Of a DNA stretch of 64,000 bases, positions 3,962-23,741 are shown one piece after another. This stretch comes from Spirochaetales bacterium (GTDB taxonomy: Bacteria; Spirochaetota; Spirochaetia; UBA9216). The stretch's first letter is position 1, and each line of letters begins with the position of its first letter. The translations under genes were made by a program, and so were the position numbers. Location: contig JAEKNX010000021.1 of the NCBI GenBank assembly GCA_016839055.1, positions 1 to 64,000 on the forward strand, in the 5' to 3' direction. The notes under the pieces were generated by a model. The model saw only the letters and a program-made list of their open reading frames with translations. It ran no database searches and had not been told where the DNA came from.

Positions 3962-3990
3962 ACTCTAAACGTGGGAATGATCTTTGTCAA
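3962..3990 (-). promoter_or_regulatory. Promoter of the 642-aa hypothetical gene (leaderless type)
   Basis: On the minus strand TTGACA (3990-3985), a 17-bp spacer and TAGAGT (3967-3962) are followed after 8 nt by the ATG at 3953. There is no Shine-Dalgarno sequence between. Confidence 0.65.
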
Positions 3991-4004
3991 CGATGTATTT
4001 TTAC

Positions 4005-4034
4005 TTGCCTTTATTTCTTCTTTGCATTTACAAT
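4005..4034 (+). promoter_or_regulatory. Promoter of the molybdenum hydroxylase operon (leaderless type)
   Basis: TTGCCT (4005-4010), an 18-bp spacer and TACAAT (4029-4034) are followed after 6 nt by the ATG at 4041. The expected transcription start coincides with the start codon. Confidence 0.55.
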
Positions 4035-4040
4035 GATACT

Positions 4041-4808: not shown

Positions 4809-5286
4809 TGAGCTTAACTTTAGTTTTACCGTAAACGGCAGAGAGAAGACATTCTGTTTCCCTCCTGAGGCCACCCTCCTTACTGTGCTCAGAGATAATG
4901 GGTATACCGAGGTACATAACGGCTGTGAAACCGGAGAGTGCGGTTCATGTGTAGTGATTCTTAACGGCGTTACCGTAAATTCCTGCATGGTGCTCGCCGC
5001 GAGCGCCATGGACGGTGAAATTCTAACCGTAAGGGCCCTGGGTGATGTTCACAACCCCCACCCCATCCAGCGCGCCTTTGCTGAAAGCGGTGCGGTTCAA
5101 TGCGGCTTCTGTACTCCGGGACAGATCTTAAGCGCCTACGCTCTTCTTACCGAAAAACCATCTCCTAGCGACGAGGAAATAAAACAGGCTCTTGACGGAA
5201 ACATCTGCCGATGCACGGGGTACAAGAAAATAATCGAAGCTGTAAAGCTTTCCGCCGTCAGGATGAAGGGAGATGATGATGAATAA
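4801..5286 (+). CDS. Molybdenum hydroxylase, [2Fe-2S] subunit (set 1)
   Basis: This 161-aa small subunit carries two [2Fe-2S] clusters. The N-terminal plant-type ferredoxin cluster is C42, C47, C50 and C62 (CETGECGSC then C). The C-terminal all-alpha cluster is C101, C104, C136 and C138 (CGFC and CRC). All eight cysteines are present. Electrons pass from the molybdopterin site through these clusters to FAD. The gene overlaps both neighbours, so the three subunits are probably made together. The length is usual for XdhC/CoxS proteins. Confidence 0.93.
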   Translation: MNNELNFSFTVNGREKTFCFPPEATLLTVLRDNGYTEVHNGCETGECGSCVVILNGVTVNSCMVLAASAMDGEILTVRALGDVHNPHPIQRAFAESGAVQCGFCTPGQILSAYALLTEKPSPSDEEIKQALDGNICRCTGYKKIIEAVKLSAVRMKGDDDE

Positions 5287-7600
5287 GAACTTTAAACAGG
5301 CGGGTCTTTCTCATGAGAAGCTGGACTCCATTGCCCTGGCCTGCGGGCGGGAAAAATATACCGATGATTTCAGGATTGATGAGCCTCTCTTCATTTCCTT
5401 CCTATACTCAGACATTGCCAGCGGATTAATAAAATCAATAAACATTAGCCGGGCAGAGGCGGCAGACGGGGTCAAAGCCGTTCTGTATTATGGAAATACT
5501 CCCGAAACCCTTCACACCACAGCCGGGCAGGGTTTTCCTGAGCCCTCACCTTATGACTGCCGAATGTTCGACAGTAAGGTCCGTTTTGTCGGCGACCGAA
5601 TAGCGGCCGTTGCGGCTGAAACTAAGAAGCAGGCTGACGCGGCGCTAAAGCTGATAGATGTCAAAATAGAAGAAAGTGAACCTCTCTTTGATATGGAAAA
5701 AGCCATGGATGCCGGAGCGCCCCTGATTCACACCGATGATGAATATCCCGCCATCCCGGTGACTTATAAACCCGAAATCAACCTTGCCGCGGAGGTCCTC
5801 ATCAGCTTCGGTGATATAGAAAAAGGTCTGGCGGAAGCCGATACCGTGATAGAAGACAGTTACAACATGCAGTATGCCTCTCATTGCGCAACCGAACCCC
5901 ACGCAGTGGCTGTATACTTCGACGAGCGGGGCCGGATGGTCATAATTTCAGCCACCCAAGTGCCGTTTCATGTAAGAAGAATAGTCAGCATGGTCTGCGG
6001 AATTGCAATACAAAATATCAGGGTAATAAAACCTCGGGTCGGCGGCGGCTTCGGCGGCAAACAGGAAGTATTCCTCGAACAGGTTGCCGCCCTGACCGCC
6101 TGGAGACTTAGACGCTCGGTTAAGATTGTCTTATCAAGAAAGGAAGTCTTCATTAATGCCCGCACCCGGCATGCCATGAGAAGCCGGATAAGGATGGGAG
6201 TAAAAAAAACCGGTGAGATTACCGCCCTTGAAGTTGATGACCTAATGAATGCCGGCGCCTACGGACCTCACGCCCTTACTGTTCTTTCCAATGCCGGGGC
6301 CAAGGTTCTGCCGCTTTTCAATAAAATTGAAAATCTTTCATTCACGGGACGTTCTGTATATACCAACCTGCCCATAGGCGGTGCCTACCGCGGATACGGC
6401 GCTACTCAAGGGTACTTTGCACTTAATCAGCATATTGATGCAGCCGCCAGATACTGCGGGATAGACTTTCTCGATTATGTTAAAAAATGGCATATAAAAT
6501 CGGGTGAAACCTCTGCGGTTTTCGCGGCCCTGGGCGAAGGAAAGGAAGGCGTAAGCCAGTACATCAAGTCATGCGGACTCGGAGATTGTATTGACCTCGG
6601 CGCTGAGGCTATAGGCTGGGCTGAAAAACGCGGCAAAAAAATCCGCAGCGGCAGCAAGGTAAGGGGCGTCGGTGCGGCCGTATGCATGCAGGGCTCGGGC
6701 ATTCCCGAGATTGATATGGCAAGCTGCCACATCAAGATGAACGAGGATGGTTCATTCAATCTGAGTACCGGCGCAACAGACATTGGTACAGGCTCGGACA
6801 CCATCCTTGCCCAAATTGCGGCCGAGGCAGTTGGAACAAGCTATGACAAATTCATTGTGCTCTCATCAGACACTGATACTACCCCCTTCGACACGGGAGC
6901 CTATGCCTCGTCCACTACCTATATAACAGGAAACGCTGTAAAATTATGCGCGCTCAAGATAAGGGCTCAGCTTGAAGAAACTGCAGCCGAAATTCTATCG
7001 GTAGAAAAAAGTGACATAGAGCTTTCAGGCGGCACGGCCAGGCAGATATTGACCAGCAAGAAAATCAGTTACGGGGAGTTATGCGCCTACCGGCTCTATA
7101 CCTCGGGTCAGTATCAGATTCAGGCAACACAGTCATTCGTAGCGCATGAGTCTCCGCCGCCTTTCACCGCCCAGTTTGCCGAGGTAGAAGTTGACCTCGA
7201 AACCGGCGAGCTTAAACTCCTGGAGCTTGTCGCCGCGGTTGACTGCGGACTGGCCCTGAATCCGATTCTTGCCGAGGGCCAGGTTGAAGGGGCAGTACTG
7301 AACGGAATATCCTATGCTCTCACCGAAGAATATCTTTTTAATTCAAAAGGCAGAATGGTTAATCCGGATTACGGTCATTATAAAATTTTCTCAATCGCGG
7401 ACATGCCGAAGCTTAAGACAATAATTGTAGACTCATTCGAACAGACAGGCCCGTACGGGGCAAAGAGTATTGGAGAAATTGCCTTAAACGGTCCGGCTCC
7501 GGCAATTGCGAATGCGGTTTTTGACGCGGCGGGAATAAGGCTGAAAGATACTCCTTTCACCCCTGAAAAGGTATGGAAACTTCTCAGGAAGGAGGTTTGA
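5279..7600 (+). CDS. Molybdenum hydroxylase, molybdopterin-binding subunit (set 1)
   Basis: This large catalytic subunit of about 773 aa belongs to the xanthine dehydrogenase superfamily. It has the molybdopterin loop GGGFGGKQE at 255-263, the substrate-side arginine in AYRGYGATQG, and the catalytic glutamate E733 in KSIGEIALNGPAPA. Aligned by eye to bovine xanthine oxidase, the purine-contacting glutamate of GGKE is a glutamine (Q262) here, while the arginine of the FRGFG motif is kept. The substrate may therefore differ from xanthine, for example another purine, a reduced intermediate or an N-heterocycle. Three ATGs lie in a row. The one at 5279 has AGGGAG six bases upstream and is chosen over 5273. 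The stop overlaps the next start as TGATG. Confidence 0.9.
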   Translation: MNKNFKQAGLSHEKLDSIALACGREKYTDDFRIDEPLFISFLYSDIASGLIKSINISRAEAADGVKAVLYYGNTPETLHTTAGQGFPEPSPYDCRMFDSKVRFVGDRIAAVAAETKKQADAALKLIDVKIEESEPLFDMEKAMDAGAPLIHTDDEYPAIPVTYKPEINLAAEVLISFGDIEKGLAEADTVIEDSYNMQYASHCATEPHAVAVYFDERGRMVIISATQVPFHVRRIVSMVCGIAIQNIRVIKPRVGGGFGGKQEVFLEQVAALTAWRLRRSVKIVLSRKEVFINARTRHAMRSRIRMGVKKTGEITALEVDDLMNAGAYGPHALTVLSNAGAKVLPLFNKIENLSFTGRSVYTNLPIGGAYRGYGATQGYFALNQHIDAAARYCGIDFLDYVKKWHIKSGETSAVFAALGEGKEGVSQYIKSCGLGDCIDLGAEAIGWAEKRGKKIRSGSKVRGVGAAVCMQGSGIPEIDMASCHIKMNEDGSFNLSTGATDIGTGSDTILAQIAAEAVGTSYDKFIVLSSDTDTTPFDTGAYASSTTYITGNAVKLCALKIRAQLEETAAEILSVEKSDIELSGGTARQILTSKKISYGELCAYRLYTSGQYQIQATQSFVAHESPPPFTAQFAEVEVDLETGELKLLELVAAVDCGLALNPILAEGQVEGAVLNGISYALTEEYLFNSKGRMVNPDYGHYKIFSIADMPKLKTIIVDSFEQTGPYGAKSIGEIALNGPAPAIANAVFDAAGIRLKDTPFTPEKVWKLLRKEV

Positions 7601-8907
7601 TGGAGAATCGTTATCTTCTTCAAAACTGTATTATTGCCGACAGCCGAAGTTTTTTCGGCAGCGGCGAAATTCTTGTGTCAGGAGGAAAAATCGAGGCAAT
7701 AGGCAACTACGGCGAACTTGAACCTAACCCCGATTCAAGGCTAATAAAGTATGACCTCGGAGGCCGCATACTCCTGCCTGGCTTCGTTAACCCTCATGCT
7801 CATCTGTACTCATCCCTTTCTCCCGGACTCTCACCCCGGGGCACGGTTAATTCCTTTAAGGAAATACTCTCGAATTTCTGGTGGCATCTTGATTCGGTCA
7901 TGGATGAGGAAGCAGTCTATTATTCAGCCTTATCGGGAATCCTCGATGCCGTGAAGCACGGGGTCACCTGTATCTTCGACCACCACGCCTCGATGAATTT
8001 TGTACATGGAAGTCTTGAGGCAATAGAAAAGGCTTTTAACCTCGCCGGAATAAAGGGAGTACTCTGCTTTGAAACTTCAGATAGACCCAGTGATTCTCCT
8101 ATATCGTCTCACATCAGGGAGAATATTGATTTCATGGAAGCGCATATGGACAACGGCAGAATAAGGGGAATGCTCGGACTTCATGCCAACCTGACCCTGT
8201 CCAACTCGGTTCTTGCTCAACTGGGTGAAATAAACTCGAGTTTGAAGGAGGCGGCCCCCATCCACATCCACTGCGGTGAGGACCAATCAGACCTGGTTTT
8301 CTGTCAGAACTCAGGCTTTCACGGGCCGGTGGAACGCCTTAGCAGTTACAAATTGATAAGCCCGGATTCCATTCTGGCCCATTGTATCCATCTCTCAGAA
8401 CGGGATTTCGAGATCCTCCACGAAATTGCCCCCTTCGTAATCAGCAACCCGGAATCAAATGCGAATAACCGGGTTGGGAAAATAAACCAGGCATATATTC
8501 AAGACTATCTCATCGGAACCGACGGGATGAGTTTTGATATGATCTCATCACTCCGTTCTCAATATCTCATGGGAAATGGAATCAAAGAAAATTACCAGAT
8601 TCTATATAATACTTTCATGAAGAATCCTGCTCGTCTGCTCAGCCGGTACTTCCCGACAACCGGTATTCTTGAACCCGGAATGGACGCTGATATTGCGGTA
8701 TTGGATTATATTCCCGAGACTCCTATCGATGAAAAGAGCCTCATAGGACATCTAATCTTCGGTGCCAGAGGCGGAAAGGTCTTCATGACAATTGCAGGCG
8801 GAAACATCCTCTACAATGACGGAGAGATTACTTTTACCTTTGAGCGTTCGCTTAAAACCCAGATTAAATCAGCGGCGGAAAAGCTGCACGGGAGATACAA
8901 TGGCTGA
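7600..8907 (+). CDS. ssnA: SsnA-like aminohydrolase
   Basis: This metal-dependent amidohydrolase of 435 aa has its HAH metal motif at 66-68 in NPHAHLYS, a FWWHLD segment, DHH near 128, IHCGED, and the late TDG of IGTDGMS. These features fit the SsnA branch of the cytosine deaminase-like family, which is part of the selenium- and molybdenum-linked purine degradation set. In that pathway it is thought to open or deaminate a urate-derived intermediate; the exact reaction here is inferred. The start at 7600 has AAGGAGG and overlaps the upstream stop by one base; the longer frame from 7573 is not needed. It lies between the molybdenum hydroxylase and a flavin-dependent reductase-like gene, which suits sequential ring-processing steps. 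Confidence 0.8.
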   Translation: MENRYLLQNCIIADSRSFFGSGEILVSGGKIEAIGNYGELEPNPDSRLIKYDLGGRILLPGFVNPHAHLYSSLSPGLSPRGTVNSFKEILSNFWWHLDSVMDEEAVYYSALSGILDAVKHGVTCIFDHHASMNFVHGSLEAIEKAFNLAGIKGVLCFETSDRPSDSPISSHIRENIDFMEAHMDNGRIRGMLGLHANLTLSNSVLAQLGEINSSLKEAAPIHIHCGEDQSDLVFCQNSGFHGPVERLSSYKLISPDSILAHCIHLSERDFEILHEIAPFVISNPESNANNRVGKINQAYIQDYLIGTDGMSFDMISSLRSQYLMGNGIKENYQILYNTFMKNPARLLSRYFPTTGILEPGMDADIAVLDYIPETPIDEKSLIGHLIFGARGGKVFMTIAGGNILYNDGEITFTFERSLKTQIKSAAEKLHGRYNG

Positions 8908-11016: not shown

Positions 11017-12191
11017 AATTTTCTTACAGATGTACAGACTGCGGCCTCAGCCTTGAAATAAAACCGAACGTGCAGCTCTGTCCTGCCTGCAGTTCCTCCG
11101 GCCAGCCTGACAAACCACTTAAGGGTGTCCTCGAGACAGTCTGCGAGGGCACACCTGATGCCTCGCCCTTTGATGAAACGGTGGACTTCATTCATCAGCT
11201 TCTTCCGGTTGAGAAAAAATATTTTCCGTCCATCCCGGTCGGAATGACACCGCTGTGGGAACCTGAGAACCTCAGAAAACGGCTCAACCTGAAAAACCTC
11301 TTCATAAAGGATGACACCCTCAATCCGACAGGCTCACTGAAGGACAGGGCGTCATTTCTGGTAGCAGCCTTTGCCCGCAAGTACAAGATTACTGATATAG
11401 TCGTAGCCTCAACCGGCAATGCCGCCTCATCGATGGCGGGAATAGGGGCCGCGGCCGGACTGAATGTTAAAATCTTCATCCCGTCATCCGCCCCCAAGGC
11501 CAAGATGGTTCAGGCCCTTCAGTACGGAGCCGATGTAACCCTCGTTGACGGAACCTATGATTTAGCCTTCGAGAAATCAATTGAGTACACAAATAAATAC
11601 GGAGGCATGAACAGGAACACGGCATACAACCCGCTGACCCTCGAAGGTAAGAAAACCGCGGCACTGGAGGTATTTGCCCAGATGAGACGGGTGCCCGATC
11701 ATGTCTTTGTCCCTGTTGGAGACGGGGTCATCCTCGGCGGTCTGTACCGCGGCTTCATCGACCTTTTTGAGAAAGGCTATACGGACAAGATTCCCGTCAT
11801 TCACTCCGTCCAGGCCGAAGGCTCTTCTGCCATAAACCGGGCACTTGCCGGCGGCGGCTTTACAGCACCTGTGAAATCCGACACCATCGCTGATTCCATC
11901 TCGGTAGATATTCCCAGGAACGGATATTATGCGGTCAATATGCTGAAAAAATATTCGGGAACCGGGGTGACGGTAACTGATAAGGAGATACTCGAAGCCC
12001 AGAAGACTCTTGCTTCGAGTACAGGCTTATTTGCCGAACCATCGTCGGCCTCGGCCCTCGCCGGGCTCCTTAAAATCAGAGACTCAATCGATGATAACGC
12101 CTATACTGCGCTGATTGTAACTGGAAACGGCCTCAAGGATATTGACGGTGCAATGAGGGCACTCAAAATGGAAGGAGAGAAGCTTGCATAA
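11013..12191 (+). CDS. Threonine synthase-like PLP enzyme with N-terminal zinc ribbon
   Basis: This is a 392-aa fold-type II PLP enzyme. The Schiff-base lysine is K110 in NPTGSLKDRAS; STGNAASS is the asparagine loop, and a glycine-rich phosphate loop (VPVGDGVILGG) follows. The N-terminus carries a short zinc ribbon, C7-x2-C10 and C23-x2-C26, as in many threonine synthases. Threonine synthase itself would make no sense inside a purine operon. In the same position other bacteria use YgeX, 2,3-diaminopropionate ammonia-lyase, also a fold-type II PLP enzyme but with a different N-terminus. I infer that this protein removes ammonia from diaminopropionate to give pyruvate, as a non-orthologous replacement. 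A beta-elimination on another amino acid is possible. It overlaps both neighbours. Confidence 0.8.
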   Translation: MKFSYRCTDCGLSLEIKPNVQLCPACSSSGQPDKPLKGVLETVCEGTPDASPFDETVDFIHQLLPVEKKYFPSIPVGMTPLWEPENLRKRLNLKNLFIKDDTLNPTGSLKDRASFLVAAFARKYKITDIVVASTGNAASSMAGIGAAAGLNVKIFIPSSAPKAKMVQALQYGADVTLVDGTYDLAFEKSIEYTNKYGGMNRNTAYNPLTLEGKKTAALEVFAQMRRVPDHVFVPVGDGVILGGLYRGFIDLFEKGYTDKIPVIHSVQAEGSSAINRALAGGGFTAPVKSDTIADSISVDIPRNGYYAVNMLKKYSGTGVTVTDKEILEAQKTLASSTGLFAEPSSASALAGLLKIRDSIDDNAYTALIVTGNGLKDIDGAMRALKMEGEKLA

Positions 12192-14310
12192 AATAAGTAC
12201 ATCAACACTCAGGCCGGATTCCAAAACCAAATCTTCCGGCCGGGCCGAGTATATCTCTGATATAGAACTTCCTGATATGCTTCATATGGTAATCCTTTCG
12301 GCCGGCATTCAACACGGGAAAATACTGAAAAAAACAATCCCGCCCCTGCCAGTCGGCTATCATATTATCGGCTCCGGAGATTTCAGCGGAATCAACAAGG
12401 CAACGATTGTAGCGCAGGACTGGCCGTTTTTTGCGGAGGATGAGGTAGTCTATTACGGACAGCCCGTGCTTGCGGTTGTAGGATCTGATAAAATAGAATG
12501 CGGAAATATCTGTTCAAAAATAATAATAGATTACGAGGAACTTCCTGCCGTCTCGACTATTGATGAAGCGGTGGAGTTCTTCAATGATTACACTATAGTG
12601 AAGGGAAAGCCTGATGAATGCTTTAAGTCCGCCGGGCGGATTCTTGAAAACACCTACCGCACCGGAATGCAGGAGCAGGCATACATGGAGCCCCAGGGAA
12701 TGATAGCGGAATTCTCGGGCGGCAGGCTGACGGTGCGCGGCTCAATGCAGTGTCCGTACTACATCAAAAACTCTCTTAATAATGCCTTCGATATAGGCGG
12801 AGATAATATAAGAGTTATTCAGACCGAAACAGGCGGCGCGTTTGGAGGCAAGGAGGATTATCCGTCAATCCTTGCGGGGCAGACCGCGGCCGCGGCTATT
12901 GTCACCGGCAAACCTGTCAAGCTAGTGATGGATAGGCGAAGTGATATGCTAATTACCCCGAAACGCCATCCGTCCTTAATTAGGATAAGGACTGCCGTCG
13001 ACCAGAGCGGCAGGATAAGTGCTATGGACATCGACTGCCGCCTGGATGCCGGAGCCTACGAGAGTCTGTCCGGAGTTGTTCTCGAACGCGCTATCTTCAT
13101 CTGCACCGGGGCCCACAACATCGAGAATATCAGGGTTCGCGGACGATCGATGAAGACAAACCATGTACCATCCGGCGCCTTCCGCGGATTCGGCGGGCCT
13201 CAGGCCCTCTTTGCGGCAGAAATGAATATGTATTACGCAGCCCTCGAACTCGGGGTCAAACCGGTAGACCTCAAACGCCGCTATCAGTACAGACAGGGAG
13301 ACAGATCGGTTACCGGCGGAACGTTCCGAGATGATATAAAACTCGACCAGATGTTTGATATCATCGAGCGCGCCTCCGACTACAGCCGGAAGTACAAAGA
13401 GTATGAGAGACCTTCCTCCCCGGGCGAAAGACGTAGAGGAATAGGAATATCCTACGCCGCGCATGGCGGAGCCTTTACCGGAAGCGGAGAACAGGAAATA
13501 ATCAAGAGCCTCGTGAGGCTCAAAGCCGAACCTGCGGAAAATGAGGATTTTAAACACTTCATTCGCATTCTTGTATCAAACGTCGAGATGGGACAGGGCG
13601 CCTCGACGACGCTCCGGAAAATAGTCGCCGAAACAATGGGTCTTCCGCTCGAGGCCGTCATCTACACAGTTCCGGACACCGATGTGGTTCCAGATTCAGG
13701 ACCAACTGTCGCCTCCCGGACAATTATGATTGTCGGAAAACTCCTTCAGGATGCCGCCGAAGAGCTGAAAAAAAATATTGATTCAGGAAGCCCGGTGCTG
13801 ACTGCCGAGAAACGTTATGTTCATCCGGAAGAATTCGAATGGGACGAGGAAACTTTCAAAGGAGATGCCTACCCCGCATACTCCTGGTCGATCAACGTCG
13901 TCGAAGTCGAAGTTGATCCGATCACATTCGAAGTAAGCATAACCGGCTCCTGGGGAGTCTATGATGTCGGAACAGCCATTGATCTCCGTATTCTCAAGGG
14001 TCAGATGCAGGGAGGAACGGCACAGAGCCTCGCATATTCAACCATCGAAAGGATGGAGATGAGCGGAGGCCGTCCGGCCCAGGCATCCTTTACCGATTAC
14101 ACAATTCCGACAACCCTCGACTTCCCCGATACCGAATGTTTTTTTATCGACAACCCCTACCGCTACGGACCCTTCGGAGCAAAGGCCGCCGGCGAGCTTC
14201 CCAATGAAGGACCTGCCGGAGCGGTTGCCGCCGCGGTCTCCCAGGCTGTCGGCCGGATTATTACTGAAATTCCCGTTACACCCGAAATGCTGGAGGCTGC
14301 ATCAAGATGA
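12184..14310 (+). CDS. xdhA: Xanthine dehydrogenase-type molybdopterin subunit (set 2)
   Basis: This is the second large molybdopterin subunit, 708 aa. It has the GGAFGGKED loop at 217-225, AFRGFGGPQA near 330, and catalytic E671 in AKAAGELPNEGP. Unlike set 1 it keeps the glutamate (E224) that in bovine xanthine oxidase contacts the purine, together with the matching arginine, so hypoxanthine, xanthine or guanine oxidation is plausible. The start codon is TTG at 12184, supported by AAGGAG six bases upstream and by the 8-bp overlap with the PLP gene. The N-terminal ferredoxin and FAD domains are separate downstream genes, as in XdhABC of E. coli. At 708 residues it is somewhat shorter than set 1. 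Confidence 0.9.
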   Translation: MHKISTSTLRPDSKTKSSGRAEYISDIELPDMLHMVILSAGIQHGKILKKTIPPLPVGYHIIGSGDFSGINKATIVAQDWPFFAEDEVVYYGQPVLAVVGSDKIECGNICSKIIIDYEELPAVSTIDEAVEFFNDYTIVKGKPDECFKSAGRILENTYRTGMQEQAYMEPQGMIAEFSGGRLTVRGSMQCPYYIKNSLNNAFDIGGDNIRVIQTETGGAFGGKEDYPSILAGQTAAAAIVTGKPVKLVMDRRSDMLITPKRHPSLIRIRTAVDQSGRISAMDIDCRLDAGAYESLSGVVLERAIFICTGAHNIENIRVRGRSMKTNHVPSGAFRGFGGPQALFAAEMNMYYAALELGVKPVDLKRRYQYRQGDRSVTGGTFRDDIKLDQMFDIIERASDYSRKYKEYERPSSPGERRRGIGISYAAHGGAFTGSGEQEIIKSLVRLKAEPAENEDFKHFIRILVSNVEMGQGASTTLRKIVAETMGLPLEAVIYTVPDTDVVPDSGPTVASRTIMIVGKLLQDAAEELKKNIDSGSPVLTAEKRYVHPEEFEWDEETFKGDAYPAYSWSINVVEVEVDPITFEVSITGSWGVYDVGTAIDLRILKGQMQGGTAQSLAYSTIERMEMSGGRPAQASFTDYTIPTTLDFPDTECFFIDNPYRYGPFGAKAAGELPNEGPAGAVAAAVSQAVGRIITEIPVTPEMLEAASR

Positions 14311-14789
14311 ACCCGAATGTTATTATTGAGTTTACCCTCGACGGAAAGAAAGCACGCTTTGAGACGAGTCCTGAAAAAAGGCTTCTCGATGTCCTCAGGG
14401 AGGATGCCGGAATAAAGGGAGTTAAGGAAGGCTGCGGAGAGGGAGAATGCGGCGCATGCAGCGTCCTTCGCAACGGCAGACTTGTCAACTCCTGCTCGAT
14501 ACCGGTAATAGCCGTCCACGGTGACGACATTCTAACCATAGAAGGCTTTTCACGGACAGAAAGCTACCGGATAATCTCTGACTCCTATGCCGAGGCCGGC
14601 GCCGTTCAATGCGGATTCTGCACTCCCGGCTTTATCATGGCTACCGCCGCCCTGCTAAATGAAAATCCGACGCCTGATGAGGGAGAGATAAGAAAGGCTC
14701 TCTCGGGCAATCTCTGCCGCTGTACCGGCTATACGATGATAATCGAAGCGGTAAAATCAGCCGCCGCGAGGATGGCCGGCAGTGAATAA
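14307..14789 (+). CDS. xdhC: Xanthine dehydrogenase, [2Fe-2S] subunit (set 2)
   Basis: This 160-aa protein has eight cluster cysteines: C43, C48, C51, C63 (CGEGECGAC then C) and C102, C105, C137, C139 (CGFC and CRC). It is the electron-transfer subunit for the set 2 molybdopterin protein, which it overlaps by 4 bp (ATGA). The gene overlaps the FAD subunit by 8 bp. It is clearly a paralogue of the iron-sulfur subunit at 4801 but diverged, so the two hydroxylases are old duplicates or separate acquisitions rather than a recent copy. Confidence 0.93.
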
Positions 14790-15705
14790 TAGCATTCCGG
14801 AAAATGCCGACAGCCTGTCCCCGGTAAGACTAATTGACGCTCTGAAACTTGTTAAAAACGGCTTTCAGCCGGTATCAGGCGGCACTGATCTGCTTATCAG
14901 GCGTCATAGCATCGAGAAAGCAGAATCACATAAGCTCGGAGGCAACCTCAGCAGCAGCTTTAAGCCGGTTTTTTATGCGGGAAGAATTGCCGAACTAGGC
15001 AGAATATTTATTCCGGAGACCGGAAAAGACGGCGATGATAGCCTTGAAATTGGAAGCTGCGTCACCCTCAGCGAAATAATTGCGTCGCCGCTCTGCCCGC
15101 CGCTTCTCGCGGAGGCTCTAGAATCCATTGCGTCGCCGGGAATCAGGAACATTGCAACCCTCACCGGAAACATCTGTAACGCGAGCCCCGCCGGAGATTC
15201 GCTTACTGTTCTCTACATCCTTGATGCGGTAATACAGGCGGCCTCCCTTGGTGAAGGCGACTTACCTGTCAGCCGAAAGATAGCTATTTCAGACTTTATT
15301 ACCGGACCTGGAAAGACGGCCCTTGGGGCCGGCGAACTTGTCACCGGCGTGAGCCTTCCCCTTCCATCCGGACTTAAAGCAGTCTTCAGAAAAATTGGAA
15401 CAAGGGCCGCCAACGCTCTCTCCAAATTAAGCCTAGCCGCCGTCTGGAAAATCGAAGATCATATTTTCACTGATTTCAGACTGGCTGTCGGCGCATGCGG
15501 GCCCAGGGTAATCAGAAGCCGCAGGGCTGAGGATCTCATCAGGGGCTGCAGGACGGCTGATATTGAAAATCAGCTTGAGCAAATTCTTTCGGTTTACTCA
15601 AGCGTCCTTATCCCAATCGATGATCAGAGGAGCACGGCAGAATACCGGAAGAATACTGCGCTTAAACTTATAAAACAGATAATCCTCGATGCAGGAGGAA
15701 GGTAA
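14782..15705 (+). CDS. xdhB: Xanthine dehydrogenase, FAD subunit (set 2)
   Basis: This 307-aa FAD-binding subunit has both expected FAD loops: VSGGTDLLI near residue 34 and TLTGNICNASPAGDS near 130. The C-terminal CO_deh_flav_C region ends in YRKNTALKLI. It hands electrons to NAD or another acceptor. The start codon is GTG at 14782, inside the 8-bp overlap with the iron-sulfur gene. It is longer and more canonical than the set 1 FAD subunit (255 aa), whose second loop is altered. Its stop overlaps the next ATG by one base. Confidence 0.9.
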   Translation: MNNSIPENADSLSPVRLIDALKLVKNGFQPVSGGTDLLIRRHSIEKAESHKLGGNLSSSFKPVFYAGRIAELGRIFIPETGKDGDDSLEIGSCVTLSEIIASPLCPPLLAEALESIASPGIRNIATLTGNICNASPAGDSLTVLYILDAVIQAASLGEGDLPVSRKIAISDFITGPGKTALGAGELVTGVSLPLPSGLKAVFRKIGTRAANALSKLSLAAVWKIEDHIFTDFRLAVGACGPRVIRSRRAEDLIRGCRTADIENQLEQILSVYSSVLIPIDDQRSTAEYRKNTALKLIKQIILDAGGR

Positions 15706-17063
15706 TGATTTTACTGAAAAACTGTTTCTGCGTGTTTGATGGAACAAAACGGCTCTATGCTCAGGACATTTTGATAAAGAAAAATATTATCCATAGCATA
15801 GGGCCTACTGCTGCCGTACATAATCCAGAAGTGACTGAGGTTGTCGACTGCTCGGATCATCTAGTAATTCCGGGCCTTGTTAACACCCATCATCATTTCT
15901 ATCAGATCCTCACAAGGAACCTGCCCGAGGTGCAGAATGCCGAACTCTTCGACTGGCTCATTTTTTTGTATGAAACCTGGAAAAATATTGATTCTGAGGC
16001 GGTCTATTACTCCTCCCTTGCCGCCATGGCCGAGCTGATGAAAACGGGCTGCACCTGCAGCACTGATCATCATTACCTCTATCCCTCAGCCTTTATCGGG
16101 GACATCATGGCTCGCCAGTTTGAGGCGGCAGAGACGCTCGGAATGAGGTTTTCTCCAACCCGCGGCTCGATGTCGCTCAGCAAGAAAGACGGGGGGCTGC
16201 CTCCTGATTCGGTGGTTCAGACAGAAGAAGAGATACTCTCCGACAGCGAGAGGGTTATCTCCGAGTATCATGATCCGTCGGACTTATCCATGCGCCGGAT
16301 AATCCTCGCGCCCTGCAGCCCCTTTTCAGTCACCACGGATCTGATGAAAAAAAGCTCCGAACTCGCCCGCAGACACGGCGTACTGCTTCACACTCATCTC
16401 GCCGAAACCTTCGATGAGAATGACTTCTGCGTGAAAAAATACGGGGTAAGACCGCTTAAACTGATGCAGGACTGCGGATTTACCGGCAGCGATGTGTCCT
16501 TCGCCCATGGAATCCACTTCAATGATGAGGAGCTCGAAGTTTTAAGGGATGAAGGCTGCAGCATCTGCCACTGCCCGTCATCAAATATGAGACTCGGCTC
16601 CGGCATAGCCCGCGTCAGGGAGATGCTTGATATGGGAATTAATGTTTCGCTCGCGGTTGACGGCTCCGCATCAAACGACAGTTCCGACATGCTCTCCGAA
16701 GTTCGCAGCGCTCTAATGCTGCAGAGGGTCAAGGGCGGAGCCGCTGCGCTGACGGCGGATGAAGCGCTAATGATGGCAAGCCGGGGCGGAGCGAAGACCC
16801 TTAATTTCCCTCGCTGCGGAATGCTGAAGGAAGGCTGGGCAGCTGACCTTGCAATCTACAATATGAAAACCCTGGACTACGCGGGCTCACTCTCTGACCC
16901 TGCCGCGGCACTGATTTTTTGCGGATACGACCACAGAACTGAGCATACGATGATAAACGGCAGGTTCACCGTTAAAAACGGCCGCCTTACCGGCTTCGAT
17001 GAAGAGGATATAATCCGCAATGTAAACAGAATAGCCGCCCGCCTCCGACAGCAACAACGATAA
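15705..17063 (+). CDS. 8-oxoguanine deaminase-like amidohydrolase
   Basis: This 452-aa amidohydrolase of the cytosine deaminase/ATZ family has its metal motif at 62-64 in NTHHHFYQILTR, DHHYLYP near 125, HTHLAE (third ligand), the HGIHF histidine, and VDGSASND with the catalytic aspartate. The THHHFYQ and DHHYL pattern is that of 8-oxoguanine deaminase, which converts 8-oxoguanine to urate. This makes sense here: a molybdenum hydroxylase can make 8-oxoguanine from guanine and this enzyme then yields urate without passing through xanthine. Start 15705 has AGGAGG and overlaps the FAD gene stop by one base. It closes the 11-gene operon. Other ATZ-family deaminases (guanine, hydroxy-triazine) cannot be excluded. 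Confidence 0.8.
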   Translation: MILLKNCFCVFDGTKRLYAQDILIKKNIIHSIGPTAAVHNPEVTEVVDCSDHLVIPGLVNTHHHFYQILTRNLPEVQNAELFDWLIFLYETWKNIDSEAVYYSSLAAMAELMKTGCTCSTDHHYLYPSAFIGDIMARQFEAAETLGMRFSPTRGSMSLSKKDGGLPPDSVVQTEEEILSDSERVISEYHDPSDLSMRRIILAPCSPFSVTTDLMKKSSELARRHGVLLHTHLAETFDENDFCVKKYGVRPLKLMQDCGFTGSDVSFAHGIHFNDEELEVLRDEGCSICHCPSSNMRLGSGIARVREMLDMGINVSLAVDGSASNDSSDMLSEVRSALMLQRVKGGAAALTADEALMMASRGGAKTLNFPRCGMLKEGWAADLAIYNMKTLDYAGSLSDPAAALIFCGYDHRTEHTMINGRFTVKNGRLTGFDEEDIIRNVNRIAARLRQQQR

Positions 17064-17106: not shown

Positions 17107-17715
17107 ATGGTTGATTTATTTATTAAAGGCGGACTACTCATGTGGCCGCTTGCGGTTCTCTCAGTTGTTGCCCTTGCAGTCATTCTTGAAAGAGAGTTTT
17201 TCTATCTCCGAAACAGGATCTCCGACAGCGCCTTAAACGAGCTTAAAGAGGATGTAGTCAAAGGCTCTGTCGAAAAGGCGGCTTTACTCACAGGCAGCTC
17301 AGAGCGCCTGCTTTTTCGCTTCCTCTCCTCTGTCTTTGCCAACAGATTAAAGGCCCCCGATGTTGCCGAGAAGGAGATCTCGCTGGAAGGCAACAAGATC
17401 CTGTTTTCCGCATCACGCTTCATTCACATACTAGAGCTGATAGGCAGTGTCTCACCGATGATAGGCCTAAGCGGAACCGTAGTCGGAATGGTGAAGGCCT
17501 TCCAGCAGATTGGAATTGACTCAGGAAGCCAGATTGATCCGTCGCTGCTTGCCGACGGCATATGGGTTGCAATGATAACGACGGTCGCGGGGCTCTTTGT
17601 AGCAATCCCCTGTCTGATATTCGCTCATATCAATAATTCCAGAATCAAAAAGCTTGCCTTCACCATGAAAATTTACGGAGAAGAGATCAACACAATCCTC
17701 CGGGCAGAAGAATAA
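17107..17715 (+). CDS. exbB: ExbB/TolQ/MotA-family proton channel subunit
   Basis: This 202-aa inner-membrane protein has three hydrophobic helices: one at the N-terminus (GGLLMWPLAVLSVVALAVIL) and two near residues 115-140 and 160-185. The family signature GSVSPMIGLSGTVVGMVKAF lies between. With ExbD and TonB it uses the proton gradient to energise outer-membrane receptors. It has its own promoter just after the purine operon, so it may be expressed both by read-through and separately. MotA and TolQ are excluded by the ExbD and TonB neighbours. Confidence 0.9.
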   Translation: MVDLFIKGGLLMWPLAVLSVVALAVILEREFFYLRNRISDSALNELKEDVVKGSVEKAALLTGSSERLLFRFLSSVFANRLKAPDVAEKEISLEGNKILFSASRFIHILELIGSVSPMIGLSGTVVGMVKAFQQIGIDSGSQIDPSLLADGIWVAMITTVAGLFVAIPCLIFAHINNSRIKKLAFTMKIYGEEINTILRAEE

Positions 17716-17727
17716 GAAGGTGCGCCT

Positions 17728-18144
17728 GTGATAGAATTTAATGATTTTGATGAGTCCTGGACATCGCGCGGGCGCTTTGACATGACCCCGATGATAGACA
17801 TGATATTTCTGCTTCTTATTTTCTTTCTTCTCACATCGACCCTCTCGAAACCGGTCATCACCGTTGATCTTCCGGAATCAGAAATAACCGAGACGAGGGT
17901 GGAACAGGAAATAATCGTAGCAGTCGAGCGCGACGGAGGACTGTTTCTGAATGAAGTGGAGTATTCAAGAGAAGCGCTTAAGACTGAACTTACCCGAATA
18001 TACTCCGAGCGCGAAACCAATGATATCTTCATCCAGGCGGATGAGAAGGTCGACTTCGGAATTGTCGTCGATGTTATGGATATCTGCCGCGGAAGCGGTG
18101 CCATCGATCTCTCTTTCCTGGTCGATGAAAAAGCGGCCCAGTAG
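17728..18144 (+). CDS. exbD: ExbD/TolR-family biopolymer transport protein
   Basis: This 138-aa protein has one transmembrane helix near residues 22-40. It contains the essential aspartate D24 in MTPMIDMIFLLLIFFLL, followed by a periplasmic domain. It starts with GTG at 17728, with AGAAGG seven bases upstream. It partners ExbB and TonB in energy transfer. The spacing to exbB is 12 bp and to tonB 5 bp, so the three are one transcription unit. Confidence 0.92.
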   Translation: MIEFNDFDESWTSRGRFDMTPMIDMIFLLLIFFLLTSTLSKPVITVDLPESEITETRVEQEIIVAVERDGGLFLNEVEYSREALKTELTRIYSERETNDIFIQADEKVDFGIVVDVMDICRGSGAIDLSFLVDEKAAQ

Positions 18145-18149
18145 GCTCC

Positions 18150-18854
18150 ATGAAGTCCGGAAAATTCATTTTAATCTTTATTGCACTATCACTTATTCTT
18201 CATCTGTCTCTCATCTTCATCAGCCTCGAACCGTCAAAATCCGAACCCTCGAGAGAACTTAAAAAGCTTATTCCTGTTAATCTTGCGATGAAAGCTCAGA
18301 GTGAGCCGCCTACCGCGGCGCCTCCTGCACCAATAGAGCCGAAAGCACTGCCGCCTCAGCCGGCAAAACCCGTCCCGGTGAGACCCGAGCCAGTTGAGCC
18401 CGCGATAGTTAAGCCTTCGCCCATTCCGGTGGTAACAACCGTCCCGGAGCCTGCGGCTAATCCAGGCCCTGAGCCCTCAGCAGAACCCGCGGCCGCGCCT
18501 ACCACACCACAGACCTCAGTTCTGCCAGATAGCAACCCAGGCGCGCAAACCGGTACTACCGGAGAACAAAACGATAACATCTTCGAAGGGCTTATCAATA
18601 GGATCAAGATGTACACCGACAGTACTTATCCGCTGAAAGCCAAAAAAAGAGGGCTTCAGGGAGTAATCTATGTTCGCCTCATTCTCGATGAAGAAGGAAA
18701 TATGATTAGAACGGAGATTATTGAACCTTCTCCATACCAAAGCCTAAATGCAGCCGCAATTAAATTAATTTACAAAGCAATGGAGACACCATATCCCCAC
18801 AATCTTGGACGCAACGTCTCTCTTCCAATTCCCGTCACATACAGACTAAAATAA
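18150..18854 (+). CDS. tonB: TonB-like energy transducer
   Basis: This 234-aa protein has an N-terminal membrane anchor (about residues 5-25) and a long proline/glutamate/alanine-rich periplasm-spanning region at about 50-130. The C-terminal TonB domain is at about 150-234 (LQGVIYVRLILDEEGN, then ALNAAAIKLI-type helix). It contacts the TonB box of outer-membrane receptors. A TonB-dependent receptor gene lies 1.3 kb downstream, so this system is probably dedicated to it. Its placement between purine-degradation genes suggests a ligand linked to purines or to molybdenum cofactor supply. Confidence 0.9.
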   Translation: MKSGKFILIFIALSLILHLSLIFISLEPSKSEPSRELKKLIPVNLAMKAQSEPPTAAPPAPIEPKALPPQPAKPVPVRPEPVEPAIVKPSPIPVVTTVPEPAANPGPEPSAEPAAAPTTPQTSVLPDSNPGAQTGTTGEQNDNIFEGLINRIKMYTDSTYPLKAKKRGLQGVIYVRLILDEEGNMIRTEIIEPSPYQSLNAAAIKLIYKAMETPYPHNLGRNVSLPIPVTYRLK

Positions 18855-18902: not shown

Positions 18903-18931
18903 TTGATAATTGGGTAATTGTAAGTTACTAT
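18903..18931 (+). promoter_or_regulatory. Promoter of the structured leader and receptor operon
   Basis: TTGATA (18903-18908), a 17-bp spacer and TACTAT (18926-18931) predict a start near 18938, immediately before the structured RNA. Confidence 0.6.
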
Positions 18932-18937
18932 TCATCA

Positions 18938-19131
18938 TCGTTTTTCGATCTTCAGCACCCTAAGGCTGCCTGGCTATGGGGCTGAAGACACTTATCGATT
19001 CGTGGAATCGATATAAGGGTATATAGAGAAATCTTTATGCCTCCCGTGTTTGGAAAGGAAAACGGCCTCTGCATATCCTCTTTGCATGCTGGATCTTTCT
19101 CTTCACGTATTTTTTTTCTCAGGAGAAGAAT
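18938..19131 (+). ncRNA. Structured leader RNA, riboswitch candidate
   Basis: About 190 nt between a good promoter and the lipoprotein start folds into several helices. Hairpin 18949-18988 has an 8-bp stem and the exact 11-nt tetraloop receptor (CCTAAG at 18959-18964 and TATGG at 18975-18979). A second stem spans 18991-19017. Hairpin 19022-19037 is capped by a GAAA tetraloop, the natural partner of that receptor. A fourth element, 19036-19075, pairs TATGC with GCATA and CCGT with ACGG around a pyrimidine-rich internal loop. A docked tetraloop and receptor implies a folded tertiary structure. The Moco/tungsten-cofactor family would fit the context, but I cannot confirm the consensus. The order of elements argues against the c-di-GMP-I class, and no B12 box is present. 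An AGGAGAAG ribosome site and possible antisense pairing near 19115 suggest control of translation. Confidence 0.65.
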
Positions 19132-20082
19132 ATGTTAAAAAATCTCATCAAAGGTATTGCAGCATGTGCATTGATAATTTCATTTGCCGCCTGTGATCAG
19201 AACCCGCCGGCGCCGGAAGCCTATCCGGGGGAGCCGACAACCAAGACAGCTGTTGCATTTGAAACCCTAACATCAGTATTTGACCTCTCAGGCAAGACCA
19301 CGGAAAAAGTTACGTATTATTATGATAAGGATGATCCCAGTCTGACCTGCGATGTTGCCGGATATAAGATGGAACTTTTCCTATCAAAGACTACTGTCAA
19401 CGCCAAGGTTGACCCGTCTGAGACTACTACCGATTTCCGAAGCATGTTCAACTACAACATCGTAGCATCAGATAGCTACAGCTTCCTGGACAAGGAAAAA
19501 CTGTTGGATCTAACTCAGATGCTGACAGGACATTATCTTGACACCTTCGATACTCCGTCTAAAACAGGGAATGATCCCAGAAGTTACTTCCAGTCAACAG
19601 ACATTGTAAAGGGTTATGATATAAAAGACGCAAAAGACATTGCCCTCTACCGTGCCGTAAAAATAACTAACGGTGAGACATCATTTAACTTCCCAACAGA
19701 CTCACTCGTAGCAGCAGATCTTCCCTGGGTTAAGATTAAAAACGGCGAGGAAACTCCTCTGACGAACAAGGCTGTTGCAATTGAAAGCATTCTCTACACC
19801 TTCTTCACCGCTCAGACTGATAAAGACCGAAAAGACGCTTTATACACTGTGAAATGTGCCGACTACGCGGCAGATGATGAGTACAGCTTCGAGGTTCTGA
19901 CCTATGACCAGCTTAAAACAGCATACTTCATGCCGGCAACCAAGACCTTTGCAGCCGATAGCGAATATGAGGATCTTCTCGTTGTCATGAACAAGACGGC
20001 GGCTGACGGTAAAACTCCGGCAAACGATGACAGCGCTCTAAGGCTCAAGATGCCTGTAGAAATAGTCGTAATCTGGCCGTAA
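19132..20082 (+). CDS. Secreted lipoprotein of unknown function
   Basis: This 316-aa protein has a lipoprotein signal peptide ending in SFAAC, with lipidated C20. The mature protein starts with a proline-rich stretch, then a mixed alpha/beta domain with many Tyr-Lys-Asp patches and no cysteines after the lipobox region except two late ones. I do not recognise a family. It follows the structured leader RNA, has AGGAGAAG eight bases upstream of ATG, and precedes the TonB-dependent receptor by 57 bp. A role as a surface or periplasmic accessory of the receptor, for example in ligand capture, is inferred from position only. Confidence 0.8.
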   Translation: MLKNLIKGIAACALIISFAACDQNPPAPEAYPGEPTTKTAVAFETLTSVFDLSGKTTEKVTYYYDKDDPSLTCDVAGYKMELFLSKTTVNAKVDPSETTTDFRSMFNYNIVASDSYSFLDKEKLLDLTQMLTGHYLDTFDTPSKTGNDPRSYFQSTDIVKGYDIKDAKDIALYRAVKITNGETSFNFPTDSLVAADLPWVKIKNGEETPLTNKAVAIESILYTFFTAQTDKDRKDALYTVKCADYAADDEYSFEVLTYDQLKTAYFMPATKTFAADSEYEDLLVVMNKTAADGKTPANDDSALRLKMPVEIVVIWP

Positions 20083-20139: not shown

Positions 20140-22503
20140 ATGAGCCACAGAAGTTTTTTAAAATCCATATCAATCGCTTTTTTACTGATAACAGCAGGAT
20201 TTATATTCGCGGAAGAAAAATCCATCGAAATAATTGAAGTTCCAGAAGATGAGTCCATCCTTCCCGAGGTTGAAATAGTAGAAACTGCTCCGCCTGCGAC
20301 AACTTCGCTTAGTGGAAAAGAGGCCGTCGAACATAACGAGTTCACCCTCGATGAATCTCTACAGAGAGCTGCCGGAATCTATGTTGAAAAGGCCCCCAAG
20401 GGACACAGCAGGCTCAAGATGCGCGGATATGAGATGGATATGATTGGTTTTTTCATAGACGGCATTCCCATTAACGACATATATAATACTAATATTGACA
20501 TAGCCCAGATTCCTGTATTCTCATATTCAAATATAAACATACAGAGAGGCGCCGCATCGGCCCTCTACGGTTGTGACGCCTCTGTAGGCCTTATTGAACT
20601 GAAGTCCGGAATACCGGATACCGGAAGGTTTCAGTCAGGACTGTCATACGACTTCAGCGGTTCAGATCTTCTTAACAACAGCTATGATGATTCGGAGCTT
20701 TTTAACTCAGGAATAACAGCCTATGCACTGATCGAAGATATGCTCGATGATTTTTATTATAAGGCTGGAGCATCTTATTATGATAATGGCGGCTATAGTC
20801 CGTCAGCAAGTCTTACAACTGAGACCAAGAAGGTTTGGCTTGAGACCATCCTTAGCCCGGAGCTGTACGGGGACAGCCTGTCTTCCTTTTTGATTTCCAA
20901 TGCCTCCATGCTTGATTACGCGGCCTACGATAATTCCTGGCGGAATACTTTTTCTACAGGCCTGAATCTTACCGGTAAAGCCGGATTATTTATTGGAGAT
21001 AATGCCGAAGCCGGAATATCCGCGGCCTTTAATTATAACAGAAAAAACTCAGTCTCATATCTATGTGAATACCTCTCCACCTGGGATTTCGAAAATGAAG
21101 CCTGGATAACCGGAGCGGATCCTGCAGGCGACGGTTTTACCGAGAGAGACTGGGAATGGCCCTATATGTATGACTGGTATGTAACCCCATATTATGAACA
21201 ACAGCTCGACAGCCTGCTTATAAAAACAAATATTTATCTCAGGATACTTACAAACTCTCTTATCTGGTCCGGCTCTTATTCAAACTGGTTTGAGACAACC
21301 TGCGGAGGACGGATTTCAGCTGAGTGGGACATGGCGGACTGGAATACCCTCAGCGCTGCCCTCATAATCAGAAACGATGATCATACAGAATCAGAGTCAT
21401 TCTACACCTCTTTGCCTCCAACTCCTCTGCAGAAATATCTCGGCGGCCTTCGGCCTTCGGATGAAGAGGTTCCACACACCATCATTGTCAAAGAACTCGC
21501 AGGCGCGCAGGGAGCTATAGCCCTTGAAGACAAGATAAGCCTGTCAATCGTCGAAATTACCGCGGGATGCTCTTATGATGTGCAGTTTTTCTACAAGAAC
21601 AATGGTGAGACCGGATACTGGAGACAGAACCAAGACGACTCATGGTATTACGAGCTTAAGACAAACGATATCTCAAGCTCAGATGCCCTCATTTTTGGAA
21701 GTCGTGATTCTTTTAATCCGGTGCTCAATATTGATTTAAATATTGTTCCGGATATTTTCACCATAAATTTCGGAAGCTCTGTTAAAACCCGCTTCCCAAG
21801 TTTTGATAACTATTATACTGATTTCGTCGTAATGGGAGACGAATTGTTCAGGGAAGAACTTAAAAATCAGATCTCCTGGAACTTGAATCTCGGAGCGGAA
21901 TATATCATTCTACATGAAAACCTTTCCCTCCGATGTGATATTTTCTATACAAGTTATACAAACAAACTTGAGGATTATATCAACAAGGAGGCTGAGACTG
22001 TTTATTTTAATATACCACAATCAGACTCTTACGGACTCGAGGCGCTTTGTTTCTTCAATGCCGAAGTTCCGGAACTCCTACTAATCTTGGGGAGTCTTGG
22101 CTACACCTTCAATGTAGGAAGCATTCCCGGACAGGCCGAATCAGTATTCACGTATAATCCGGCCCATGAAATTCTCTTTGATATTAAAGCCGAAACAATA
22201 ACCGAACATCCCACGAAACTCATGCTATGGGGGAAATACAGTACAGGGGCCGTTACATACAGGATGAAATCTATTCCTCCATCCACCGGGGCTTACCCAG
22301 GAGAATATCTTGAGGCTGTCAGTCTACATTCCCCCTTCTTCCTTAACTGCAGAATCAGTCAACATCTTCCCGCTGACTTCTCGTTATTTTTTCTTGTCGA
22401 AAACATCCTTGATGATTACGGCATTGATCCCTTTAATCCCGGAGCCGGAAGGACCTTCAGCGTCGGCGTCGATTTTGATGTCGAAGATTTCCAGATTCAG
22501 TAA
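20140..22503 (+). CDS. TonB-dependent outer-membrane receptor
   Basis: This 787-aa protein has a cleavable signal peptide (hydrophobic 8-23, then FAEEK). A TonB-dependent receptor plug domain spans about residues 55-150 (SLQRAAGIYVEKA, LKMRGYEMD, GIPINDIY, IQRGAASALYGCDASVG). A long beta-barrel with alternating aromatic strands follows and ends in GRTFSVGVDFDVEDF. The start has AGGA six bases before ATG. It should import a scarce or large ligand across the outer membrane using the ExbB-ExbD-TonB system encoded just upstream. Neighbouring genes suggest purines, purine-rich polymers or a metal/cofactor linked to molybdoenzymes; the sequence alone does not identify the ligand. TonB receptors are uncommon but known in spirochaetes. 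Confidence 0.9.
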   Translation: MSHRSFLKSISIAFLLITAGFIFAEEKSIEIIEVPEDESILPEVEIVETAPPATTSLSGKEAVEHNEFTLDESLQRAAGIYVEKAPKGHSRLKMRGYEMDMIGFFIDGIPINDIYNTNIDIAQIPVFSYSNINIQRGAASALYGCDASVGLIELKSGIPDTGRFQSGLSYDFSGSDLLNNSYDDSELFNSGITAYALIEDMLDDFYYKAGASYYDNGGYSPSASLTTETKKVWLETILSPELYGDSLSSFLISNASMLDYAAYDNSWRNTFSTGLNLTGKAGLFIGDNAEAGISAAFNYNRKNSVSYLCEYLSTWDFENEAWITGADPAGDGFTERDWEWPYMYDWYVTPYYEQQLDSLLIKTNIYLRILTNSLIWSGSYSNWFETTCGGRISAEWDMADWNTLSAALIIRNDDHTESESFYTSLPPTPLQKYLGGLRPSDEEVPHTIIVKELAGAQGAIALEDKISLSIVEITAGCSYDVQFFYKNNGETGYWRQNQDDSWYYELKTNDISSSDALIFGSRDSFNPVLNIDLNIVPDIFTINFGSSVKTRFPSFDNYYTDFVVMGDELFREELKNQISWNLNLGAEYIILHENLSLRCDIFYTSYTNKLEDYINKEAETVYFNIPQSDSYGLEALCFFNAEVPELLLILGSLGYTFNVGSIPGQAESVFTYNPAHEILFDIKAETITEHPTKLMLWGKYSTGAVTYRMKSIPPSTGAYPGEYLEAVSLHSPFFLNCRISQHLPADFSLFFLVENILDDYGIDPFNPGAGRTFSVGVDFDVEDFQIQ

Positions 22504-22544: not shown

Positions 22545-23741
22545 ATGATTGAAAAAGAACTGAACAGATTAGTAAATGAAATTGGCAATCTTGAATCTTC
22601 ACGTTTATATGGCGGAGATTTTCTTCTTAGCTGGGAAAAGACCATCGACGAGATCCTCACAACCCTTAAGACCGCCGATGCTCTCAGGCTCCTCAGGGCT
22701 GAGAATATATCACCTCGAATCTTCGACTCCGGCCTCGCGGTTTCAATTTTCAGGGATAATTCAACCCGCACAAGGTTTTCCTATGCCAGCGCGGCCAACC
22801 TTCTTGGACTCGCAGTTCAGGAACTTGACGAGAAAAAATCACAGATTGCCCATGGAGAGACCATCAGGGAAACCTCTTGTATGATCTCATTCCTTACCGA
22901 AGCCATAGGTATTCGTGATGATATGTACATAGGTGAAGGCCACAGCTACATGAAGGAAGTTGCTGATTCCCTATCCGAAGATTTCACATCAGGTCTGATA
23001 CCTCAGCGTCCTACGCTCGTTAATCTTCAGTGTGACCTCGACCATCCCAGCCAGATAATGGCCGATACTCTCCATCTTATAAATCACTTTGGTGGAGTTA
23101 ACAACCTCAAGGGCAAGAAGGTGGCCATGAGCTGGGCTTATTCCCCGTCCTACGGAAAACCCCTCTCAGTCCCGCAGGGGGCCATTGCCCTCATGAGCCG
23201 CTTCGGTATGGATGTGACTCTTGCCCATCCGCCCGGATATAACCTGATTGAAGAGACCGAGACGATAGCGGCGGACTTCTGCAGTCAGTCCGGTGCTACA
23301 TACACTAAAACCGAGTCAATGGAAGAAGCATTTGAAAATGCCGATATTGTCTATCCGAAGAGCTGGGCCCCATTCAGCGTAATGCAGCAGAGAACTAAAC
23401 TTCTTAAAACCAAAGATGATGCAGCCCTTGTAGAGCTTGAAAAAGATTGTCTTGATCAGAATAAGAAATTCATGGACTGGGAATGTACCGAGAATTTGAT
23501 GAAAAAAACAAAAAACGGCTCAGCCCTTTACCTTCACTGTCTACCGGCCGATATATCTGGAGTAAGCTGTGAACACGGCGAGGTTGCAGCCCCGGTATTT
23601 GACCGCTATCGCAAACTCACCTATCTGGAGGCAAGCTATAAACCATATATAATTGCGGCGATGATCTTCCTTTCCAAAATCAAGAACCCCGCTGCAAAAC
23701 TTGAAGATCTACTAAAGAATGCACCTGCAAGGAGATACTAA
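22545..23741 (+). CDS. ygeW: Knotted carbamoyltransferase YgeW
   Basis: This 398-aa protein is in the aspartate/ornithine carbamoyltransferase superfamily. It has the carbamoyl-phosphate loop STRTR at 73-77, the HCLPAD motif near 330, and the YgeW-type insertions (ESSRLYGGDFLLSW at the N-terminus, VNLQCDLDHPSQIMADT). In the anaerobic urate pathway YgeW removes a carbamoyl group from a ureido intermediate (2,3-diureidopropionate type) by phosphorolysis, giving carbamoyl phosphate that can be used to make ATP. Its own leaderless-type promoter separates it from the receptor gene. PduL follows directly. Argininosuccinate-pathway ornithine or acetylornithine transcarbamoylase is less likely given the YgeW-specific segments and context. 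Confidence 0.9.
   Translation: MIEKELNRLVNEIGNLESSRLYGGDFLLSWEKTIDEILTTLKTADALRLLRAENISPRIFDSGLAVSIFRDNSTRTRFSYASAANLLGLAVQELDEKKSQIAHGETIRETSCMISFLTEAIGIRDDMYIGEGHSYMKEVADSLSEDFTSGLIPQRPTLVNLQCDLDHPSQIMADTLHLINHFGGVNNLKGKKVAMSWAYSPSYGKPLSVPQGAIALMSRFGMDVTLAHPPGYNLIEETETIAADFCSQSGATYTKTESMEEAFENADIVYPKSWAPFSVMQQRTKLLKTKDDAALVELEKDCLDQNKKFMDWECTENLMKKTKNGSALYLHCLPADISGVSCEHGEVAAPVFDRYRKLTYLEASYKPYIIAAMIFLSKIKNPAAKLEDLLKNAPARRY

Follow-up and report, generated by a model that had tools for sequence, protein, structure and literature searches.

The usual view is that molybdate and tungstate pass the outer membrane passively through porins. The riboswitch class RF01055, which is associated with the molybdenum or tungsten cofactor (Moco/Tuco), was described by Regulski et al. 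(2008, PMC2408646) with a GNRA loop on helix P4 and a tetraloop receptor in P2 as part of its structure, and it was proposed that RNAs bearing a P3 stem sense Moco and that P3-less RNAs sense Tuco. The E. coli copy represses, and Moco riboswitches also occur before Moco-using enzymes (PMC2408646). At the inner membrane, a BtuCD-type molybdate importer, MolBC-A, has been established in Haemophilus influenzae (PMC4031551). In the open-access literature we found no paper linking the Moco riboswitch to TonB receptors, and an earlier report may exist.

We analysed a stretch of 64,000 nucleotides from a Spirochaetales genome (the window), in which a leader RNA precedes the genes of a lipoprotein and a TonB-dependent receptor. 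The features of the locus are as follows.

17107-18854, + strand: exbB, exbD and tonB, the energising complex (Pfam MotA_ExbB, ExbD, TonB_C)
18903-18931, + strand: possible sigma-70 promoter, TTGATA-17-TACTAT, no better than chance by itself
18931-19077, + strand: Moco/Tuco riboswitch aptamer, RF01055 (cmscan)
18949-18988, + strand: P2 hairpin with the 11-nt tetraloop receptor (cmscan alignment, sequence)
18993-19013, + strand: P3 stem, 9 bp, perfect, TATCGATTC / GAATCGATA (sequence, cmscan structure)
19017-19042, + strand: P4 hairpin, GAAA-capped (cmscan; covariation in 20 copies)
19105-19135, + strand: predicted 14-bp hairpin burying the Shine-Dalgarno (SD) sequence GGAGA (19122-19126) and the start codon (19132-19134), candidate expression platform (folding)
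19132-20082, + strand: putative surface lipoprotein, 316 aa, lipobox-like FAAC, without a Pfam family
20140-22503, + strand: TonB-dependent receptor with plug domain, 787 aa, divergent member of a family linked to molybdenum and tungsten (Mo/W) genes (Pfam Plug, 56.7 bits; relatives; AlphaFold)
22545-23741, + strand: YgeW knotted carbamoyltransferase, possibly cotranscribed (NCBIfam TIGR03316, 657 bits)

A sequence-only reading of this DNA had described a GAAA tetraloop and an 11-nt receptor in a folded leader, and both are present where it placed them. The receptor halves, CCTAAG (18959-18964) and TATGG (18975-18979), are opposed in the single hairpin P2, and the GAAA loop (19028-19031) tops the P4 hairpin about 64 nt 3' of CCTAAG, with the pairing taken from the cmscan alignment. 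The leader is more stable than its dinucleotide shuffles (z -3.5), none of 200 being as stable. Among 4227 Rfam families searched at curated thresholds, RF01055 gave the sole match in the window, with a score of 76.1 bits where 36 is the cut-off, an E-value of 1.3e-16 for the whole window and coverage of the full model (positions 1-135); the GNRA loop, here GAAA, falls on P4 and the tetraloop receptor in P2. When the leader was scanned by itself at permissive settings, no family besides RF01055 came up to E 1. Covariation was counted in helix P4 over 20 aligned copies, where both partners vary in eight of the 11 pairs, 91.8% of the cells are paired (39-55% on sliding) and the score was equalled in none of 500 shuffles. 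Covarying homologues, which the same reading had proposed to seek ahead of TonB receptors in other spirochaetes, do exist there.

The sequence-only reading had also suggested an Rfam search, naming a strong match to a known class as the result that would speak against novelty, and RF01055 is such a match; the leader RNA is therefore not a new class but an ordinary, strong copy of the known Moco/Tuco riboswitch class. Its picture of a folded regulatory RNA that makes a tetraloop-receptor contact before a TonB-receptor operon holds. Of the ligands it had offered, the molybdenum cofactor agrees with this assignment, and a purine or something new does not. With RF01055 the sole Rfam match up to E 1, a new riboswitch class and the purine, c-di-GMP-I and cobalamin riboswitches are ruled out. 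The position directly after a promoter is less firm, since the one candidate matches at 9 of 12 positions and five such sites were found against 3.1 expected by chance, which is weak evidence. Upstream, the exbB-exbD-tonB genes end 76 nt before the aptamer.

With its 9-bp P3 present, the window leader is a P3-bearing Moco riboswitch. Judged by eye, the copy before a BtuFCD-type ABC operon in the same genome also bears P3, and the copies before tupABC and before aldehyde:ferredoxin oxidoreductase (AOR)-type genes are P3-less, as the receptor-linked copies of other genomes appear to be. Elsewhere in the phylum, the copies before AOR genes in L171 and L174 look P3-bearing by eye, and therefore the P3 rule is not strict and is a weak guide only.

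The lipoprotein and the outer-membrane receptor read earlier from the sequence lie downstream as described. For the lipoprotein, a search of 392 other genomes of the phylum gave a single weak partial match and no useful relative; no Pfam family matched, and no homology was found to a known surface-binding partner of a SusCD-like or BtuB-BtuG pair. The AlphaFold model of the receptor, built from a 24-row alignment, is a plug-and-barrel (pTM 0.78), and its best PDB matches are BtuB (3.8e-27), BtuB-BtuG pairs and XusA-XusB. This match of a predicted structure confirms the transporter class, a TonB-dependent receptor, and says nothing on the cargo. The YgeW gene starts 41 nt after the receptor, and the wider region is one of purine degradation, with xanthine dehydrogenase-type molybdenum hydroxylase subunits, 8-oxoguanine deaminase and YgeW. 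The hydroxylase subunits form two sets (3984-8907 and 12184-17063), each ending in a deaminase-type gene, and the riboswitch is downstream of both, not before them.

We searched 393 genomes of the phylum for the receptor and for RF01055 and compared their positions; the riboswitch is present in 54 of them. Full-length relatives are 25-31% identical to the window receptor, with E-values down to 7e-90 over residues 50-776, and the C-terminal NILDDYxxDPFNPGxGR is common to the window receptor and this family. In five genomes (G050, G071, G186, G198 and G216) a riboswitch lies directly upstream of a full-length receptor relative and in the same orientation, with about 350 nt between it and the matched part of the receptor; the contigs of G186 and G216 end inside the receptor. 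Another genome scan, made with a receptor alignment, led to 32 loci, and in three of the 18 that were scanned with Rfam (L140, L145 and L148) one lipoprotein gene or two stand between the riboswitch and the receptor downstream of it, which is the order of the window; L151 is the G198 contig and is counted once. In the phylum sample six riboswitch-receptor pairs were seen against about 0.005 expected by chance, as estimated from the 13 genomes with both. Among the plug-only TonB receptor matches listed, none is behind a listed RF01055 copy. On the receptor tree the riboswitch link is scattered, with at least five label changes forced by well-supported branches, and monophyly of the riboswitch-linked receptors is ruled out by these changes. 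The window receptor sits on a long branch (2.14), and no receptor ortholog was found in the window genome's own genus or family.

TonB receptors of all kinds often have FecCD/BtuCD genes as neighbours. Members of this family adjoin FmdE together with a BtuFCD-type ABC importer (L080, L082, L158), BtuC/BtuF genes (L084, L085, L086) and TupA-like PBP_like_2 binding proteins (L076, L087, L094, L147, L156), and HTH_17/PBP_like regulators are also found beside them. Their commonest setting is an operon with a lipoprotein, a CcsA-like gene and a ResB-like gene, and the L148 contig also carries a riboswitch-AOR arrangement and, by sequence, moeA and moaA. The BtuFCD operon of the window genome, which is at another place in the genome and has a Moco riboswitch of its own before it, encodes a BtuC that is 44-52% identical to the receptor-linked BtuCs, compared with 39% to the genome's other BtuC, and it is followed by a radical-SAM gene, as is the importer of L080. 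Taken together, the family neighbours, the BtuC likeness and the precedent of MolBC-A suggest a route for molybdenum or tungsten across the outer and the inner membrane.

Two further proteins recur in these neighbourhoods. A fusion of an Oxidored_molyb-like and a tetrapyrrole methylase domain adjoins or is near the receptor at L075 (10203-11969) and also at L078, L079 and L088. In several genomes (L085, L086, L094, L148) the receptor has an IDDTD-motif protein, TiaS-like by eye, next to it or close by, and in a sister species such a protein is directly behind its own RF01055 copy (L109; G375:C6:128859-128980); those IDDTD-motif proteins that were tested have no Pfam or NCBIfam family.

How the window switch acts can be approached from its predicted folding. 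No terminator-like site that could be an intrinsic terminator was found on the + strand, and the SD sequence and start codon are inside a predicted hairpin; control is therefore most likely at translation, and we infer from these models a mechanism in which the ribosome-binding site (RBS) is masked. In constrained and equilibrium folding the RBS is hidden with the aptamer and without it alike, and the OFF polarity is assumed by analogy with the E. coli copy (PMC2408646). A complement of the conserved aptamer 3' strand, a long anti-aptamer between the aptamer and the receptor gene, is clear in four receptor-linked copies of distant genomes, L075, L076, L077 and L079 (0-2 of 100 shuffles as good); in three of these four it is CCGCCCTTTCCAA or close to it. 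In the window leader no such long strand was found, 85 of 100 shuffles being as good.

The best explanation of the locus, and in our judgement a probable one, is that Moco exerts feedback control over the uptake of Mo/W at the outer membrane by RBS masking. When molybdenum cofactor is plentiful it would bind the aptamer, the RBS of the lipoprotein-receptor mRNA would stay in the hairpin at 19105-19135 and the uptake genes would be off; when it is scarce the operon would be translated. The lipoprotein and the TonB receptor, powered by the adjacent ExbB-ExbD-TonB, would then carry a Mo/W compound, oxyanion or chelate, over the outer membrane; its passage across the inner membrane would be the task of the BtuFCD-type ABC importer. 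What the analysis shows is the riboswitch class, the gene order, the recurrent riboswitch-receptor pairing and the association of this receptor family with Mo/W genes; regulation and neighbours point to molybdate or tungstate, or a chelate, as the probable substrate. We lean slightly toward the wider proposal that a widespread TonB receptor family, mainly of Spirochaetota, is a dedicated outer-membrane Mo/W importer that has repeatedly come under Moco/Tuco riboswitches and has as its partner an inner-membrane importer, either BtuFCD/FmdE or Tup. If this is true, the family would be the Mo/W counterpart of the TonB routes known for iron, cobalamin, nickel, zinc and copper, and the riboswitch offers a straightforward means of testing the idea.

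Several points count against feedback control of Mo/W uptake: the window receptor is divergent, it stands in a purine-degradation cluster, folding hides the RBS in either state, and BtuCD-type neighbours are shared by TonB receptors of other kinds. Because the receptor is so distant from its relatives, on a long branch and with no ortholog found in its genus or family, it may have come to take another substrate, and a possible change of cargo is the main rival. The receptor might import the substrate of a molybdoenzyme, such as xanthine, urate or another purine, with the riboswitch matching uptake to the cofactor supply of the purine hydroxylases. Such a role would fit the surroundings of the operon (xanthine-dehydrogenase-type subunits, 8-oxoguanine deaminase and YgeW), the distance of the receptor from the rest of the Mo/W-linked family and the occurrence of the riboswitch class before Moco-using enzymes. 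However, the receptor relatives under the same riboswitch adjoin Mo/W genes without purine genes, and an ON switch would be needed, whereas the E. coli copy represses; we regard purine import as unlikely, if worth keeping in mind.

It is quite improbable, in our view, that the receptor has another cargo, such as a siderophore or cobalamin, and that the riboswitch serves chiefly the purine genes downstream or was left beside the receptor by a rearrangement. The short distance to YgeW would suit this reading, and so would the fold, which is nearest to BtuB, siderophore receptors and XusA, as TonB receptors generally are. The scatter of the pairing over the receptor tree argues against it, as does its recurrence at L140, L145 and L148. 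Least probable, and by our estimate hardly to be expected, is the import of an intact pterin or molybdopterin-type cofactor instead of the metal. Large cofactors are taken up by BtuB-like receptors, and the family often adjoins sulfite-oxidase-fold-like lipoproteins (by eye) and the Oxidored_molyb-TP_methylase fusion; on the other side, free Moco is unstable, and family members also adjoin TupA-like, FmdE and Moco biosynthesis genes, which means that the cofactor is made in these cells.

The window genome has seven RF01055 copies, and the six others precede tupABC, an AOR-type gene pair, a molybdopterin hydroxylase, the BtuFCD operon, another ABC system and purB; many names of downstream genes at RF01055 loci come from inspection of the N-terminal sequence by eye, with support from Pfam or NCBIfam for only some. 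The copy before purB is P3-less and occurs in two species of the genus (L010:7623-7739, which is G000:C33:522622-522738, and L104, G375:C22:247980-248096), with guaB, purA and guaA behind purB in the window genome. The purB-linked copies are followed by a terminator-like hairpin, in one of them CCCGCTCTCTCTTTTAGACAGCGGG with TATTTTT after it. The 5' arm of this hairpin could base-pair with the aptamer 3' strand. These arrangements suggest cofactor control of purine nucleotide synthesis. Other copies precede aldehyde dehydrogenase-like genes (L130, confirmed by Pfam Aldedh, L177 and L179), possibly metal-free stand-ins for AOR, and hydrogenase-looking operons (L103, L111, L123, L127, L182); hydrogenases are not molybdoenzymes. 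The gene set of the Moco riboswitch is thus widened to include receptors and BtuFCD importers and, within this genus, apparently purine nucleotide synthesis. The RNA class itself is known, and what deserves attention is its regular place before one TonB receptor family.

Several described systems share parts of this arrangement. In Pseudomonas aeruginosa, a secreted ModA and the outer-membrane protein IcmP (cited in PMC11734730) likewise deliver molybdate actively at the outer membrane, but the agent there is a binding protein exported by Type VI secretion rather than a TonB receptor under riboswitch control. MolBC-A, whose cargo is molybdate and tungstate, is a BtuCD-type ABC importer like the riboswitch-controlled BtuFCD of the window genome; it belongs to the inner membrane only, and no TonB receptor is named for it in PMC4031551. 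The Bacteroides pairs BtuB-BtuG and XusA-XusB, among the closest solved folds, also have a lipoprotein gene adjoining that of the TonB receptor, but the window receptor is only 10-13% identical to theirs, its lipoprotein is without known relatives, and the window pair is under a Moco riboswitch and not a cobalamin riboswitch. The E. coli moaA leader (RF01055, PMC2408646) is like the window RNA in helices P1-P5, the GAAA loop with its receptor, P3 and control, predicted here, near the RBS. In E. coli the RBS is inside P1, whereas in the window leader it is in a separate predicted hairpin downstream, and unlike the moaA leader, the window copy stands before the operon of an outer-membrane receptor, in a genome related to the spirochaetes.
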